Positions 18,831 through 39,324 of a DNA stretch of 64,000 nt are shown in pieces. Below the pieces are notes generated by a model that did not search any database, was not told the DNA's origin, and was given only the letters and a program-made list of their open reading frames with translations. The first letter of the stretch is position 1, and each line of letters starts with the position of its first letter. This DNA is from Hydrogenophaga sp. (GTDB taxonomy: Bacteria; Pseudomonadota; Gammaproteobacteria; Burkholderiales; Burkholderiaceae_C), in the NCBI RefSeq assembly GCF_025699295.1, contig NZ_JAILWB010000005.1, positions 1 through 64,000 of the forward strand, in the 5' to 3' direction. The translations under genes were made by a program, and so were the position numbers.

Positions 18831-20183
18831 ATGAGCAAAAAAGTCTTCATCAAAACCTTCGGCTGCCAGATGAACGAGTACGACTCGGACAAGATGGCCG
18901 ACGTACTGGGCGCTGCCCAGGGCTATGTTCCGACGCAGGACGTGGAGGAGGCCGATCTGATCCTGTTCAACACCTGCTCGGTGCGCGAGAAGGCGCAGGA
19001 GAAGGTGTTCAGTGACCTCGGCCGCGTGCGGCACCTGAAGGAAAAAGGCGTGCTGATCGGCGTGGGTGGCTGCGTGGCCAGCCAGGAAGGTGCGGACATC
19101 ATCAAGCGCGCGCCCTATGTCGATGTGGTGTTCGGCCCGCAGACACTGCACCGCCTGCCCGAGATGCTGAACCAGCGCGCGCTGCAGGCGCTGCCGCAAG
19201 TCGACATCAGCTTTCCCGAGATCGAGAAGTTCGATCACCTGCCACCGGCCAGGGTAGACGGGGCCTCGGCCTTCGTCAGCATCATGGAAGGCTGTTCCAA
19301 GTACTGCAGCTACTGCGTCGTGCCCTACACCCGGGGCGAGGAAGTGAGCCGCCCGTTCGACGACGTGCTGGTGGAGGTAGCGGGCCTGGCCGACCAGGGC
19401 GTGAAGGAAGTGACCCTGCTGGGCCAGAACGTCAACGCCTACCGCGGCGCCATGGGCGAGACCAGCGAGATCGCCGACTTCGCGCTGCTGCTGGAGTACG
19501 TGGCCGACATTCCCGGCATCGAGCGCATCCGCTACACCACCAGCCACCCCAACGAATTCACGCCGCGGCTGATCGAGGCCTACGCGAAAATCCCGCAGCT
19601 CGTGAACCACCTGCACCTGCCGGTGCAGCACGGCAGCGACCGCATCCTCATGGCGATGAAGCGCGGCTACACCGCCATGGAATACAAGAGCACGGTGCGC
19701 AAGCTGCGCGCGATCCGCCCGGACCTCTCCCTCAGCAGCGACTTCATCGTCGGCTTCCCCGGCGAGACAGACGCCGACTTCGACAGGATGATGAAGCTGA
19801 TCCACGACGTCGGCTTCGACGCCAGCTTCAGCTTCATCTTCAGTCCGCGCCCGGGCACACCGGCGGCCAACCTTGCCGACGACACGCCGCACGCCGTGAA
19901 GCTCCAGCGCCTGCAGCATCTGCAGGCCGTGGTCGAGGACAACGTGCGCCGCATCAGCGCGTCGTGCGAGGGCACCGTGCAGCGCATCCTGGTGGAAGGC
20001 CGTTCGCGCAAGAGCGCCGACGAGTTCATGGGCCGCACCGAATGCAACCGCATCGTCAACTTCGACGGTGGCCCGCAGGCCGCGCGCCTGGTGGGGCAGA
20101 TGATCGATGTGCGCATCACCGAGGCCAGGCCCCATTCCCTGCGCGGCGCGGTGCTGGTGCGCGAAGAAGCCGCGCCAGTGTGA
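18831..20183 (+). CDS. miaB: tRNA-2-methylthio-N6-dimethylallyladenosine synthase MiaB
   Basis: Radical-SAM methylthiotransferase that converts i6A37 to ms2i6A37 in tRNAs reading UNN codons. The 450 residues show the N-terminal UPF0004 domain with three cluster Cys ([31 protein letters not shown]), the radical-SAM CxxxCxxC motif [14 protein letters not shown] with its preceding [17 protein letters not shown], and a C-terminal TRAM domain ([13 protein letters not shown]...MIDVRITEA). The last codons overlap the GTG start of glrK, so miaB may head the glrK-qseG-glrR operon. Confidence 0.96.
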
Positions 20184-21598
20184 AACCGCTGCGCTTCTCG
20201 TTCCAGCAGCTGCTGCTGGTCGCGTTCCTGCTGATCGGCGCGCTGCTCGGCGCGGCCGCGCTGCGCGCCCTCTTCTCGCTCGAGTCCCTGATGGCGCAAA
20301 GCCGTGAGAGCGCGGCCCAGGCGATCGCGCTTTCGACCGCGGCGCAGTCGCTCTCCGAACGCAGCCTGACCATGGAGCGCGCGGCGCGCCAGTCGCTGGT
20401 GCTGCGCGACAGCCAGCTGCGCCGGCGCTTCGACGAGGCATCGGGCAACGCCCGCGACATCCTGCGCCGGCTTGAGGACAACGAGCTGCCGCCCGAATAC
20501 GCCACCCACTGGCGCCAGCAGCTCGACGTCATCACCGAGCTGCTCGATGGCCCGCCCGAGACCGCGCTGGACCGCGAACGCGACGTGGCGCGCGCCTTTC
20601 GCGAGATCGACGGCCACAGTGCCTCGATCGCGCAGAAGGTGCAATCCATCATCGGCGCGCGCAACGACGCGCTGCAGGCCCGCTTCGAAACCAGCCGCCA
20701 GCAGCTCACGCAGCAGGTGGTGGGCTCGATCGGCATCGCCGCCGTGCTCGCGCTGGCTTTCGGCATCTGGCTGGCGCGGCCGTTCAAGCGGCTGGAGAAA
20801 GCCATCCAGGGACTGGGCGAAAACCGGCTCGACCTGCCCATCGACATTCCTGGTCCGAGCGACGTGCGGCGCGTGAGTCAGCAACTGGACTGGCTGCGCC
20901 AGCGCCTGACCGAGCTCGACGCCGACAAGGCGCGCTTCCTGCGCCACATCTCGCACGAACTCAAGACGCCACTGGCCTCGCTGCACGAAGGCGTGGCGGT
21001 GCTGGGCGACGGCGTGGCCGGCGCGCTCAACCCGAACCAGGCCGAGGTGGTGCACATCCTGCAGCACAACACGCAGTTGCTGCAGCACCAGATCGAGGCG
21101 CTGCTGCGCTTCAACGCCGCCGCCTTCGAGGCGCGCCAGCTCCGGCGCGAGCGCACCGACCTGCTGGCCCTCATCGAAGATCAGGTCGACAGCCAGCGCC
21201 TGCGCTGGCAGGCCCAGGCCCTGACGGTGCGCGTCGAGGGTGAGCCGGTCACGCTGCCGCTGGACCGCGAGAAGATCGCCTCGGCCGTGGGCAATCTGCT
21301 GTCCAACGCGATCCGCTTCTCGCCGCACGGCGGCCACATCCGGCTGGTGCTGCACGACCTGCCAGGGCACGCCTGCATCGACATCGTTGATCAGGGCCCG
21401 GGCGTGGCCGACGTGGACCGCGACCGCATCTTCGAACCGTTCTACCGCGGCGAACGGCAGCCCCAGGGCGCGGTGCGTGGCAGCGGCATCGGTCTGTCCA
21501 TCGTGCACGAGTACATTCTGGCCCACGGCGGCCGCATCACCCTGCTGCCCCAGCGCCAGGGCGCCCACTTCCGCATCGACCTTCCCCATGCCAACTGA
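20180..21598 (+). CDS. glrK: Sensor histidine kinase GlrK (QseE-like)
   Basis: Inner-membrane sensor kinase of 472 residues. TM1 lies at about residues 10-30, a periplasmic helical region runs to about 170, TM2 ([20 protein letters not shown]) follows, then a HAMP segment, the H-box [19 protein letters not shown] with phosphoacceptor His259, and an HATPase domain (N-box [13 protein letters not shown]1 [15 protein letters not shown]-box IFEPFYRG, G2 [12 protein letters not shown]). The GTG start overlaps the miaB stop. The gene order glrK-qseG-glrR is the same as in enterobacteria, which supports the assignment. Confidence 0.88.
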
Positions 21599-22279
21599 TC
21601 TTCTCCGGCCTTGCCATCCCACCCGCCTGGCCCGCGCCGGCCACGGCACCTGCGCCGCCCTGCTGAGCTTCTGGCTGGCCGCATGCGGCACCGCGCCCAC
21701 CGCAACGGCCTACGAAGGCGCCACACCAATGGTGGCTGCTGATGTGTCGCCGGCACCGCCTCCACCGGCGGTCACGCCGGTGCCGGTACAGCCGTCCCCC
21801 GCAGACCCGCCCGTGGTGCTGGATGCGCGCACCCCACCCGTGCCCGACGTGCTCACCGCCCTGCTCACCTACGCCGAACGGCTGCGCGCGCTCAGCAGCA
21901 CCGAGCTCGCCGCCGAAATCGTCGTACAGGGCGACCCGGGCAACGTGCCCCTGCGCCAGATGCAGCTCGCGCTGGCGCTGGCGCAGACGCACGCACCGGT
22001 GGACACGGCGCGCGCGCTAGGGCTGGCGCAGCGCGTGGTCGCCCACCCGGGGCCCGAGAGCGTGCCGCTCAAGCCGCTGGCACGGCTGCTTGCCAACCGT
22101 CTGGCGAACCAGCGCCGGCTCGAGGACGCGGCAGAGCGCCAGGCCCAGCAACTGCGCGACGCGCAACGCCGCATCGAACAACTCAGCGACCGGCTCGAGG
22201 CCATGCGCGCGATCGAGCGCAGCCTCACCACCCGCCCGCCTGTCACCTCCCCCAACGGCGGCGCACGCCCCACGCCACC

Positions 22280-22283
<4 letters not shown>
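21588..22283 (+). CDS. QseG-like lipoprotein
   Basis: A 231-residue predicted lipoprotein. The signal segment GTCAALLSFWLAAC ends in a lipobox (LAAC, Cys at about 33). A Pro/Ala-rich linker follows, then a helical region and a C-terminal coiled coil (AERQAQQLRDAQRRIEQLSDRLEAM). Its place between the GlrK and GlrR genes matches E. coli QseG, an outer-membrane lipoprotein that interacts with the GlrK sensor. Similarity is positional and architectural rather than strong in sequence. It overlaps glrK by 11 bp and glrR by 4 bp. Confidence 0.7.
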
Positions 22284-23686
<1,403 letters not shown>

Positions 23687-23737
23687 CAACGCAACATCCT
23701 TGTTTTTGCTGGGATTTTTCCAGCGCGTCGCAGGGCC

Positions 23738-23755
23738 TGTCGCCATCCGGCGACA
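23738..23755. promoter_or_regulatory. Putative GlrR upstream activator site 2
   Basis: TGTCGCCATCCGGCGACA, TGTC-N10-GACA with further inner dyad symmetry (TGTCGCC/GGCGACA). Its centre is 67 bp from that of site 1 and it lies about 100 bp upstream of the -24/-12 element, a usual distance for NtrC-type enhancers. Confidence 0.62.
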
Positions 23756-23850
23756 AAACCACGGGACTGCACCCATCCTGCAAGCGGTTGAACCTGCCGC
23801 ATACATCCGGATACCTTCAAAAGCGTTGATCCGTATGGGTTTTCTGGCCC

Positions 23851-23865
23851 TGGCACAGGGTTTGC
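23851..23865 (+). promoter_or_regulatory. Sigma-54 (-24/-12) promoter of opgGH
   Basis: TGGCAC-AGGGT-TTGC matches the RpoN consensus TGGCAC-N5-TTGC at every defined base, with the GG and GC doublets 12 bp apart. The predicted start is at about 23877, next to the opgG ATG at 23878. An in-frame stop at 23869-23871 excludes an earlier start, so this transcript would be nearly leaderless. Confidence 0.7.
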
Positions 23866-23877
23866 CCTTAGACGGGT

Positions 23878-25449
23878 ATGCCCCTCGCCATCCACCCGTT
23901 TTTCACCGCCAGACGCCCGCGCGCCTGGGCCGTGTCCGGTGCCCTGCTGCTCCTGCTGTGCGGGGCGTCGGCCCATGCCCAGCGCCTTGACTGGGACAGC
24001 CTGAGTCAGCTCGCGCAAGCCCGCGCGCAGCAGCCCTTTGTGGCAAACGGCGACAAGCTGCCTGCCGAACTGGCAACCATCACCTACGACCAGCTGCGCG
24101 ACATCCGCTTCAGGACCGACCGCTCCGTCTGGCGCAGCCTGAACCTGCCGTTTGAAACCCAGTTCTTCCATCTCGGCCTGTACCAGACCGAGCCGGTGCG
24201 CATCCACGAACTCCTGGCCGATGGCACGGTGAGCCACCTGCCCTACCGGGGTACGGATTTCGACTACGGCAAGAACACCTTCGACACCAGCCGCTGGGGC
24301 GACCTCGGTCACGCCGGCTTCCGGCTGCACTACCCGCTCAACGGCGCCGCCTACAAGGACGAGCTGGTGGTGTTCCAGGGCGCGAGCTACTTTCGCGCGC
24401 TCGGTGCCGGCCAGGGCTACGGCCTGTCGGCGCGCGGCCTGGCCATCGACACGGTGGGCGGCAGCGGCGAGGAGTTTCCGCGCTTCACCGAGTTCTGGCT
24501 GCAGCGACCGAGCGCCGAAGCGACCGAGGTCACCGTGCTGGCACTGCTCGAATCGCCGCGCGCCACCGGCGCCTACCGCTTCGTCATCCGCCCCGGCCAG
24601 CAGACCACCACCACAGTGAACGCGCGGATCTATCTGCGCGCGGGCACCTCCCCGGTGAACACACTGGGCATCGCGCCGCTCACCAGCATGTTCCTCTCGG
24701 GCGAGAACCAGCCCTTGCCGGGCGACTTCCGCCCCGAGGTGCACGACTCAGACGGCCTGATGATGGTCAGTGGCGAGGGCGAGTGGTTGTGGCGCCCGCT
24801 GCAGCGCCCCAAGGCCGTCACGGTCAGCTCCTTCACCCTGCGCAACCCGCGCGGCTTCGGCCTGATGCAGCGCGACCGCGCCTTCACCAGCTACGAGGAC
24901 GTGGAAGCGCGCTACGAGCGCCGCCCCAGCGCCTGGGTCAAACCCCTGGGCGACTGGGGCGCCGGCCGCGTGGAACTGGTGCAACTGCCCGCGCCCGACG
25001 AGACGCACGACAACGTCGTCGCCTACTGGGTGCCGGCGCAACTGCCCGCGGCCGGCGAGCCGCTGGAGTTGAGCTACGAAATCGCCTGGCAGGGTGACGA
25101 GCAGCAGCGCCCGCCATCGAGCTGGGTGACGCAGACGCGCCTCGGCTACGGCTTCACCCGGCTCTCCGTGGCCGAGCAGGCGCGTCAGCCGCAGTACGTG
25201 ATCGATTTCGCCGGCCCTGCGCTCGAAGCCCTGCCCGCCGACGCCGTGGTGAAGGCTGTCGTCACCGCGAACGCCAACGGCCGCCTGCTCGAAACCCTGG
25301 CCTACCCCAACCCCGCCACGCGCAGCTGGCGCGTGACCCTGCGCGTCGAGCGCCTGGACGCGACGCAGCCGGTCGAGCTGCGCGCCTTTCTGCAACACCA
25401 CAACGACACCGTGAGCGAAACATGGACACATCTGCTGCTACCCGAATGA
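23878..25449 (+). CDS. opgG: Glucans biosynthesis protein OpgG/OpgD (MdoG)
   Basis: Periplasmic protein needed for osmoregulated periplasmic glucan (OPG) synthesis. The 523 residues begin with a signal peptide (basic TARRPRAWAV, hydrophobic SGALLLLLCGASAHAQ). The large N-terminal beta-sandwich domain has FDWDSL-like RLDWDSLSQLAQARA, ITYDQLRDIRFRTDRSVWR, AYKDELVVFQGASYFRALGAGQGYGLSARGLAIDT and the conserved EEFPRFTEFW. A smaller Ig-like C-terminal domain follows. It partners OpgH, encoded next with an overlap. OpgG and OpgD are close paralogues; the opgH linkage favours OpgG. Confidence 0.93.
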   Translation: MPLAIHPFFTARRPRAWAVSGALLLLLCGASAHAQRLDWDSLSQLAQARAQQPFVANGDKLPAELATITYDQLRDIRFRTDRSVWRSLNLPFETQFFHLGLYQTEPVRIHELLADGTVSHLPYRGTDFDYGKNTFDTSRWGDLGHAGFRLHYPLNGAAYKDELVVFQGASYFRALGAGQGYGLSARGLAIDTVGGSGEEFPRFTEFWLQRPSAEATEVTVLALLESPRATGAYRFVIRPGQQTTTTVNARIYLRAGTSPVNTLGIAPLTSMFLSGENQPLPGDFRPEVHDSDGLMMVSGEGEWLWRPLQRPKAVTVSSFTLRNPRGFGLMQRDRAFTSYEDVEARYERRPSAWVKPLGDWGAGRVELVQLPAPDETHDNVVAYWVPAQLPAAGEPLELSYEIAWQGDEQQRPPSSWVTQTRLGYGFTRLSVAEQARQPQYVIDFAGPALEALPADAVVKAVVTANANGRLLETLAYPNPATRSWRVTLRVERLDATQPVELRAFLQHHNDTVSETWTHLLLPE

Positions 25450-27452
25450 CCCCCACCACACCGGAGCGCATCCTGGCCACTTCGCACAACCGCGGTGCCC
25501 TGCTGCGCGAGGAGCGCCACCCGAATGCCGTGACGGCGCCGCCGATCAACCGGGGATCCATGGTGCCCCGCCCCTGGCGCGGCTTCTGGAACAGCATCGG
25601 CACCGCCGTGCTGAGCACGGCCAGCCGGGCACTGCCACCGCGCGCGCCGGCCGCGGCCACCGGTGCGACCACCGCGCCGCGTCTGGCCTGGCAGGCCGCG
25701 GCCAACCGCCGGCGCGCCGTGTTCGCCCTGCTCACCGTGTTGAGCACGGCGTTCGCCACCAGCCTGTTCGCCGACGCCCAGCCAATGCACGAAAACATGT
25801 GGCTGCAATACGGACAGCTCGCGCTGTTCGGTCTGCTCTCGGCCTGGGTCGTGACCGGTTTCGTGACCGCCCTGATGGGCTTCTGGGTCTCGCTGTACGG
25901 TGACCGCCACACGTTGCGCGCCGCCGATGTGCGCGAGCACCCGATGAACCCGGACGCGCGCACCGCGGTCATCATGCCGATCTGCAACGAAGATGTGGCC
26001 ACCGTGTTCGCCGGCCTGCGCGCCACCTGCGAATCGCTTGCCGCCACCGGCCACGCCGGCCAGTTCGACGTGTTCGTGCTCTCCGACAGCTACGACCCCG
26101 CCATCGCCCGGGCCGAGCGCACGGCATGGGAAGACTTGCGCGCCGCTCTCGCCGCCCAGCCCGAGCTGCCGCAGATCGAGGTGTACTACCGCCTGCGCAC
26201 GCGCCGCACCCACCGCAAGGCCGGCAACGTGGCCGACTTCTGCCGCCGCTGGGGCAAGGACTACCGCTACATGGTGGTGCTCGACGCCGACAGCGTCATG
26301 AGCGGCAGCTGCCTGGTCTCCATGGTCAAGCTGATGGAAGCCCACCCCCAGGCCGGCATCGTGCAGACCGCCACCCAGGCCATCGGCCACGCCACGCTGC
26401 ACGCGCGCGCGCAGCAGTTCGGCTCGCGCGTGACGGGCCGCCTGTTCACGCTGGGCATGCAGTTCTGGCAACTGGGCGAATCGCACTACTGGGGCCACAA
26501 CGCGATCATCCGCGTCGAGCCGTTCATGAGGTACTGCGCGCTGGCACCCATCAAGGGCACGGGCGGCATGTCCGGCGGCATCCTGTCGCACGACTTCGTC
26601 GAGGCCGCGCTGATGCGCCGCGCCGGCTACCACGTGTGGCTGGTTTCCGATCTCACCGGCAGCTACGAGCAGCAGCCGCCCGACCTGCTGAGCGAACTTC
26701 AGCGCGACCGCCGCTGGTGCCAGGGCAACCTGCAGAACTCGCGCCTGATGGCCGAACCCGGCATCCACCGCGTGCACCGCGCGATGTTCGCCATCGGCGC
26801 CATGTCCTACCTGTCGGCGCCGCTGTGGCTGGCCTTCCTGAGCATCGGCACGGCTCTGTGGACCGCGGGTGGTGCCAGCACCGTGCCGAGCTGGCAGGCC
26901 GTGCCCGACGAGTTGCGCGCACTGTGGATGTGGACGCTCACCATGCTGTTCATGCCGCGCGTGCTGGGCCTGCTGGCGGTGTTCATGAAGGGCGAGCAGA
27001 AGTCCTTCGGCGGCACGGCCGGCCTGCTCGGCAGCTCGGCGGTAGAGACGCTGCTGGCCGTGATGCAGGCGCCGATCCGGATGCTGGCGCATTCGCTGTT
27101 CGTGCTGGTGGCCATCACCGGCATCAAGCTCGAATGGAAGTCGCCCCCACGCGAAGCGGCCGGCGTGAGCTGGCGCGACGCCGTGGCCCGGCTGGCGCCG
27201 ATGACGATCGTCATCGGCCTGCTGGGCCTGGCGGTGGCCGTAATCAACGCCAGCGCGCTGATCTGGCTCGCGCCGGTGGCGCTGCCGCTGCTGCTGGCCG
27301 TGCCGCTGACGGTAGCCACCAGTCACGTGGACCTGGGCGCCTGGATGCGCTCGCGCGGCGTGCTGCTGGTGCCCGAGGAAGCCTGGTCACCGGCCGTGCT
27401 GCGCCGCGCCTGGCGGCATGCGAGCCGGTTCGCGCTTCCTCAGGCAGTCTGA
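25422..27452 (+). CDS. opgH: Glucans biosynthesis glucosyltransferase OpgH (MdoH)
   Basis: Inner-membrane GT2 glucosyltransferase that polymerises the beta-1,2 glucan backbone from UDP-glucose. The 676 residues are shorter than the ~850 of E. coli OpgH, mainly at the ends. It has two N-terminal helices near 110-160, then the catalytic domain: AVIMPICNEDVATVFAGL, VFVLSDSYD, MVVLDADSVM (DxD) and DRRWCQGNL (Q/RxxRW). Four or more C-terminal helices follow. The ATG at 25422 overlaps opgG by 28 bp; a second in-frame ATG at 25446 overlaps its stop as ATGA and is an alternative start. Confidence 0.94.
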   Translation: MDTSAATRMTPTTPERILATSHNRGALLREERHPNAVTAPPINRGSMVPRPWRGFWNSIGTAVLSTASRALPPRAPAAATGATTAPRLAWQAAANRRRAVFALLTVLSTAFATSLFADAQPMHENMWLQYGQLALFGLLSAWVVTGFVTALMGFWVSLYGDRHTLRAADVREHPMNPDARTAVIMPICNEDVATVFAGLRATCESLAATGHAGQFDVFVLSDSYDPAIARAERTAWEDLRAALAAQPELPQIEVYYRLRTRRTHRKAGNVADFCRRWGKDYRYMVVLDADSVMSGSCLVSMVKLMEAHPQAGIVQTATQAIGHATLHARAQQFGSRVTGRLFTLGMQFWQLGESHYWGHNAIIRVEPFMRYCALAPIKGTGGMSGGILSHDFVEAALMRRAGYHVWLVSDLTGSYEQQPPDLLSELQRDRRWCQGNLQNSRLMAEPGIHRVHRAMFAIGAMSYLSAPLWLAFLSIGTALWTAGGASTVPSWQAVPDELRALWMWTLTMLFMPRVLGLLAVFMKGEQKSFGGTAGLLGSSAVETLLAVMQAPIRMLAHSLFVLVAITGIKLEWKSPPREAAGVSWRDAVARLAPMTIVIGLLGLAVAVINASALIWLAPVALPLLLAVPLTVATSHVDLGAWMRSRGVLLVPEEAWSPAVLRRAWRHASRFALPQAV

Positions 27453-37835: not shown

Positions 37836-39324
<1,489 letters not shown>

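Follow-up and report, generated by a model that had tools for sequence, protein, structure and literature searches.

A GlrK-QseG-GlrR-type regulatory system encoded in the window (the whole 64,000-nucleotide stretch of Hydrogenophaga DNA analyzed here) very probably controls the adjoining opgGH genes, through a predicted sigma-54-dependent start of transcription at the opgG ATG that would yield a leaderless mRNA. A preliminary description of this DNA had proposed that GlrK-GlrR is linked to opgGH, and sequence comparison argues for that link through the conservation of the sites, their movement together with opgGH, the lack of an 18/20 pair upstream of opgGH in genomes without a close GlrR, and the match of the activator to GlrR. 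In the mechanism we propose, GlrR, phosphorylated in response to a signal presumably sensed by GlrK, would bind two enhancer sites (UAS1 and UAS2) 67 bp apart, and IHF would bend the DNA between enhancer sites and promoter, at sites that are weak here and better in most relatives. GlrR would open the sigma-54 polymerase at TGGCACAGGGTTTGC, transcription would begin at the opgG ATG or one base before it, and opgGH would be translated from a leaderless mRNA. The GlrR/sigma-54 circuit is already known; what is added here is the conserved, predicted leaderless start and the difference in targets.

Genes and predicted regulatory elements in the window

The features concerned are the following.

20180..21598, + strand, GlrK-type sensor histidine kinase gene (GTG start at 20180, from the ORF translation)
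21588..22283, + strand, QseG-like lipoprotein gene (by its place between glrK and glrR; LAAC lipobox-like stretch, by eye)
22280..23686, + strand, GlrR-type sigma-54 activator gene (NCBIfam GlrR the best model; loop GAFTDA)
23671..23688, + strand, UAS1, predicted GlrR-type enhancer site, TGTCGCCGAAGAGTGACA, exact TGTC-N10-GACA
23692..23704, + strand, weak IHF-like site (6/9) between UAS1 and UAS2
23738..23755, + strand, UAS2, predicted GlrR-type enhancer site, TGTCGCCATCCGGCGACA, exact TGTC-N10-GACA
23819..23831, + strand, weak IHF-like site (7/9) between UAS2 and promoter, position matching that of the relatives' site
23851..23865, + strand, predicted sigma-54 promoter -24/-12 element, TGGCACAGGGTTTGC, TGGCAC-N5-TTGC
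23877..23878, + strand, predicted transcription start, on the A of the opgG ATG or the base preceding it (from glmY geometry)
23878..25449, + strand, opgG (Pfam MdoG, 631 bits), predicted leaderless
25422..27452, + strand, opgH (NCBIfam MdoH, 1144 bits), overlapping the end of opgG

The gene order is miaB, sensor kinase, small lipoprotein-like gene, sigma-54 activator, opgG and opgH; the kinase-qseG-glrR order is present, with weak QseG homology. The kinase carries HAMP, HisKA and HATPase_c domains (Pfam) and is 32% identical to E. coli GlrK over 477 columns, and the QseG-like protein, which had no match among Pfam or NCBIfam models, aligned weakly with E. coli QseG, over 34 residues only. The activator has the Pfam domains Response_reg, Sigma54_activat and AAA_lid_14, and its helix-turn-helix end, which gave no Pfam hit of its own, aligned with that of E. 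coli GlrR. It is 57% identical to E. coli GlrR over 443 columns and shares with it the recognition helix RNRTEFY(K/R)LL. When E. coli GlrR was searched against the genome to which the window belongs (the source genome), the window activator came top at 520 bits and the next gene scored 288 bits. The NCBIfam GlrR model (NF011695) was the best among 108 models for this protein, at 607 bits; since this is below the curated equivalog cut-off of 763, we call the activator GlrR-type and not an NCBIfam GlrR equivalog. Its closest named relatives by GlrR are six Hydrogenophaga loci (88 to 95% identity). The matches to the opgG and opgH families assign the downstream genes to OpgGH/MdoGH osmoregulated periplasmic glucan synthesis. 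An rpoN gene was found in the source genome, which also encodes other sigma-54 activators besides the GlrR-type one; a second gene with a receiver and a sigma-54 activator part lies in the window at 37854-39044.

Both perfect TGTC-N10-GACA motifs of the preliminary description proved exact, and its TGGCAC-N5-TTGC element was confirmed as the sole exact one in the window, with the -24 GG and -12 GC present at the correct spacing. The sites had been placed directly between glrR and opgG, which is true of UAS2 and the promoter but not of UAS1, which overlaps the glrR stop codon (23684-23686) and ends in GTGACA. UAS2 and the promoter are 113 bp apart. No sigma-70-like site was seen in a scan of 23560-23960.

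The downstream IHF-like site was read from the spacer; an equal-scoring site further upstream was the script's pick. IHF-like sites of at least 8/9 were found in the UAS1-UAS2 spacers of 92/114 loci (3.9 expected) and in the UAS2-promoter spacers of 100/114 (7.2 expected), the 114 being cassette-bearing loci that are opg-linked or labelled as BON-linked (see below). E. coli glmY has the IHF-like sequence TAACTCATTGATT between its last two UAS, and TGTCN10GACA sites, together with the action of QseF with IHF, are described for glmY in the available parts of PMC8745638 and PMC6075780. IHF-like sites are a general part of the cassette, though weak in the window.

Conservation of the sites and their movement with opgGH

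A family sample of 200 genomes yielded 56 loci with a GlrR-type identity of at least 55%, the window's own locus included. The identity was at least 71% in 46 of them, and opgG or opgH followed in 44 of these 46 (opgH alone in 21). These 44 loci and one more, in genome G119, where opgGH lies ~50 kb away, made up the 45 opg loci compared. Comparison of the glrR-opgG gap across Comamonadaceae, a check suggested by the preliminary description, found the UAS pair kept: it scored at least 18/20 in 43/45 opg loci with GlrR identity of at least 71%, the exceptions being L041 (pair 16/20) and L040 (sites 146 bp apart, outside the set spacing). The best pairs were 66 to 69 bp apart in 36/45 loci, and the -24/-12 element lay 78 to 113 bp 3' of UAS2 in related opg loci. 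Among 80 named loci, the layout was common to those of Hydrogenophaga, Acidovorax, Variovorax, Ramlibacter, Polaromonas, Pseudorhodoferax, Xenophilus, Xylophilus and Melaminivora; Ramlibacter aurantiacus (L170) was without the cassette.

As controls, 17 opgGH stretches were taken from genomes without a close GlrR, and 14 were testable; L059 was dropped, no opg being recognized there, and L066 and L071 were without upstream sequence. Two distant OpgH paralogues with no UAS within one mismatch (L076 and L077) were excluded from the controls. None of the 14 testable regions carried a UAS pair scoring 18/20 or better upstream of opgGH; one reached 17/20. At a threshold of at least 17/20, the pair was present in 42/45 loci (spacing of 64-92 required) versus 1/16 controls (two truncated ones included), giving 1.7e-10 in Fisher's test, a value that, like the locus counts, ignores kinship among loci that are related and not independent.

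These comparisons also bear on chance, as GC-rich DNA gives palindromes and -24/-12 look-alikes. Motif number within the window is weak evidence on its own: TGTC-N10-GACA occurs 3 times in the 64 kb where 0.78 are expected, and at least 3 were obtained in 5/100 shuffles; the exact promoter element was expected 0.31 times, and at least one was obtained in 28/100 shuffles. It is conservation, not count, that raises the site pair above chance. Given the conservation across genera, the near-fixed spacing, and the 0.1% frequency of a pair of at least 17/20 when these regions were dinucleotide-shuffled, the probability left to chance is negligible, and we regard it as refuted by the conservation.

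The sites were also found to travel with opgGH. In three loci (L021, L032 and L039) inserted DNA separates glrR from the sites, which remain beside opg. In G119 the pair and promoter precede opgG (L058), ~50 kb from glrR, and there was no pair or promoter behind glrR (L035, L079). Since the sites stay with opg after both the insertions and the G119 move, the elements belong to opgGH and not to the glrR end. Genome G065 keeps GlrR, the UAS pair and a slightly altered promoter, TGGCCC, ahead of a small ORF that is retained at the start point; OpgH was not found there in a genome search.

Instead of GlrR, the sites might serve another sigma-54 activator, such as those encoded elsewhere in the genome, or opgGH might be transcribed mainly by read-through from glrR or from another promoter. 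No + strand terminator was seen between glrR and opgG, so read-through is possible, and a promoter of RpoE type would fit the listing of opgG under RpoE in E. coli (the part of PMC10100675 available). We consider these alternatives very unlikely. The motif equals the E. coli glmY sites, and the sites were seen with GlrR and not without it and move with opgGH, all of which argues against them; the promoter is directed at opgG, and the lack of a ribosome-binding site before the ATG is consistent with a start at the 5' end. Control of opgGH by the adjoining GlrR-type system remains the preferred reading.

The opgG start codon and the predicted transcription start

E. coli glmY has its annotated 5' end 27 nt downstream of the first TGGCAC base, and the opgG ATG at 23878 lies 27 nt after the corresponding base in the window. 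The preliminary description had placed the transcript start next to this ATG and had taken an in-frame stop at 23869 to exclude an earlier opgG start. The TAG (23869-23871), in frame and upstream of the ATG, was confirmed, and the placement of the start holds but was understated, the position being conserved across loci and implying a leaderless mRNA. No ribosome-binding site was found ahead of the ATG. Because the ATG falls at the predicted sigma-54 start point, the opgGH mRNA is predicted, from promoter geometry together with conservation, to be leaderless.

Among the 45 family loci, an ATG was found 26 to 29 nt after the first TGGCAC base in 33 and at exactly 27 nt in 22, while other offsets had a mean of 0.42 loci. 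In a larger set of 97 opg-linked loci, which partly overlaps the 45, the cassette was recognized in 95, and the ATG was at 26 to 29 nt in 80 of these (in distinct 60-nt segments, 73/87). This ATG opens opgG in 42 loci and opgH in 15; in 19 it begins a conserved small ORF and in 4 other short frames. The remaining 15/95 opg loci, most of them on early branches, have no ATG at the start point, so a leaderless start is not a feature of every opg locus. An ATG at 26 to 29 nt was found in 0/19 loci labelled BON-linked with a cassette. Of the 13 other perfect -24/-12 matches in the source genome, none had an ATG at this position or, in the upstream stretches examined, a UAS-like motif.

In loci without opgG (Variovorax, Xenophilus and Pseudacidovorax types), the ATG at the start point begins a conserved ORF, 66-70 aa long and ending in KR(L/F)PxIG(D/E), which G065 also retains (L016, L023, L024, L130, L131, L133-L135, L137-L142, L144, L145, L158, L163 and L164; also L028). 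Three examples of this ORF were scanned, with no Pfam or NCBIfam match.

The mRNA would not be leaderless if transcription started further upstream or if translation began at a later start codon. Later in-frame ATGs do occur in some opgG genes, and the opg loci lacking an ATG at the start point agree with this possibility, which we nevertheless judge rather unlikely. The concentration of ATGs at 26 to 29 nt compared with every other offset, and its absence from the other perfect -24/-12 matches of the genome, argue against it, as does the use of the start-point ATG to open opgG, opgH or the small ORF alike. Furthermore, L036, L037 and L042 have no later in-frame ATG before the mature part, and their signal peptide (by eye) needs the start-point ATG. 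Leaderless transcripts and sigma-54 promoters have both been shown in Sinorhizobium (in the part of PMC3616915 available); no description of a sigma-54 leaderless operon was found among the literature matches listed.

Other targets and relation to known systems

The activator encoded in the window has GAFTDA in its AAA+ loop in place of the usual GAFTGA. GAFTDA was present in 73/97 opg-linked GlrRs and in 0/22 of those labelled BON-linked (3 without a readable motif), and it is absent from E. coli GlrR. An ATG at 26 to 29 nt accompanied it in 72/74 GAFTDA rows (L028 included) versus 9/25 other opg-type rows; loop and start-point ATG are linked mainly via one lineage. NorR becomes constitutively active, independently of its signal, when the same glycine is replaced by aspartate (PMC2941729, in part), and in Desulfovibrio GAFTDA is natural and held to keep activity (PMC4641369, in part).

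A search of the source genome for other pairs near -24/-12 elements, likewise suggested beforehand, found the strict UAS-plus-promoter composite once, at opgG, and the looser pair (TGTC-N10-GACA twice, gap of 20-50 bp) also occurred once. By such strict patterns, which miss weaker sites, opgGH is the only target of this kind in the genome. One-mismatch scans proved useless for finding targets, giving 307 UAS matches versus 376 in the reversed control and 225 -24/-12 matches versus 146. Across the family, the strict composite was found in 17/200 genomes, once in each (reversed pattern, 0/200), at 15 opg loci, one BON locus (G156) and one place elsewhere (G011). The strict pair (TGTCG-N8-CGACA twice), a pattern that misses the window because UAS1 ends in GTGACA, was found in 14/200 genomes versus 1/200 for the reversed control: nine places were opg-type cassettes including that of G065, one was elsewhere (G165:C2), and the remaining four each shared a contig with a more distant GlrR-like gene (~3.5 kb away in G039). 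In an order-wide search the composite was present in 9/300 genomes; the loci included three labelled BON (L206, L207 and L209), one opg (L205), one neither (L210), and a stretch without GlrR (L208). Two UAS-type matches off glrR loci, G011:C9:218260-218399 (L104) and G165:C2:188587-188662 (L089), possibly reflect another target or chance.

The gene behind the cassette in Chitinimonas, Chitiniphilus, Herbaspirillum, Niveibacterium, a Roseateles genome and others encodes a secreted BON-domain protein and has a ribosome-binding site; counted from where the -24 element begins, its ATG is 65-103 nt away. BON-type cassette loci were L048, L049, L169, L172, L174, L177, L178, L180, L186-L189, L193 and L206. 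The BON-linked label was assigned to 22 rows with tblastn, and eight targets were checked with Pfam: PF04972 was found in seven, one of which also had EF-hands, and the eighth (L057) had EF-hands only, its BON label being an error that came from the EF-hand part. As in the window, a UAS pair, IHF-like sites and a sigma-54 promoter lie behind glrR in these other betaproteobacteria; the differences are the BON target, the ordinary ribosome-binding site, the distant ATG, and a loop of GAFTGA or GSFTGA where readable. In a quick GlrR tree of 141 rows, all opg-linked GlrRs formed a single group that was nested within BON-linked rows. In a more careful tree of 60 chosen rows (17 long or odd rows omitted; opg rows, L028 and L035 among them, thinned to 32 names), BON-linked rows fell inside opg ones with weak support. 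The trees group rows by target, and because the 60-row tree leaves root and order unsettled, we claim no direction for the target switch. More distant GlrR-like activators with 51-59% identity were seen at L054, L055, L056 and L057, accompanied in G134 and G039 by a closer GlrR. The UAS pairs behind those of L054, L055 and L057 precede other genes (a globin-like frame, by eye, at L055 and an EF-hand gene at L057); no such pair was present at L056.

The nearest known system is GlrK-QseG-GlrR (QseE-QseG-QseF) with glmY in Enterobacteriaceae, where GlrR is known via glmY and rpoE (PMC6075780, in part). The two share the three-gene order, TGTC-N10-GACA sites with the same inner bases, an IHF-like site and a sigma-54 promoter, and the last two enhancer sites are 63 bp apart at E. 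coli glmY, compared with 67 bp here. However, glmY has three enhancer sites and the window two, and the target is an sRNA gene ahead of glrK in Enterobacteriaceae but a protein operon, opgGH, behind glrR in the window. The window also differs in having no sigma-70-like site in the gap, a predicted leaderless start, GAFTDA, and a barely similar QseG. GlmY (RF00128) had no match in the source genome, while the E. coli control was positive. In E. coli itself, GlrR is joined to opgG through sigma-E: QseF activates rpoE (PMC6075780), and a table in PMC10100675 has RpoE regulating opgG, with GlrR and RpoN among the rpoE regulators (both sources in part). This chain makes the present link less surprising, but it is indirect, whereas here the sites are at opgGH itself.

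The preliminary description had called the target one not known to have been described. No paper on direct sigma-54 or GlrR/QseF control of opgGH was found among the literature matches listed, although the indirect E. coli chain had gone unnamed in that description. The available parts of PMC11778176, PMC5231179 and PMC6584795 combine key terms yet treat other matters, and PMC4243431 names both QseF and mdoH. The sigma-54 survey PMC3162934 has no mention of glucan or mdoH, the survey PMC12316311 none of glucan, opgG, mdoG, GlrR or QseF, and the Bordetella S17 paper none of GlrR.

We further propose, with the balance for and against about even, that in Comamonadaceae the GlrR circuit has been remade into a one-target switch in which sigma-54 transcription feeds leaderless translation, with the ATG fixed whichever gene comes first and with a GAFTDA loop. 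If this is true, control of an osmotic envelope polymer would bring enhancer-dependent transcription together with leaderless translation in a single conserved device. A role of GlrR outside enterobacteria is scarcely described among the matches listed, and a concrete target is now proposed for a whole family. That target acts on the osmotic balance of the envelope and would offer a ready reporter for what GlrK senses, and the chain from GlrR through rpoE to opgG, indirect in E. coli, would become direct here. If true, a sigma-54 promoter that in many species keeps its start point on the start codon would couple the control of transcription to that of translation in an unusual way.
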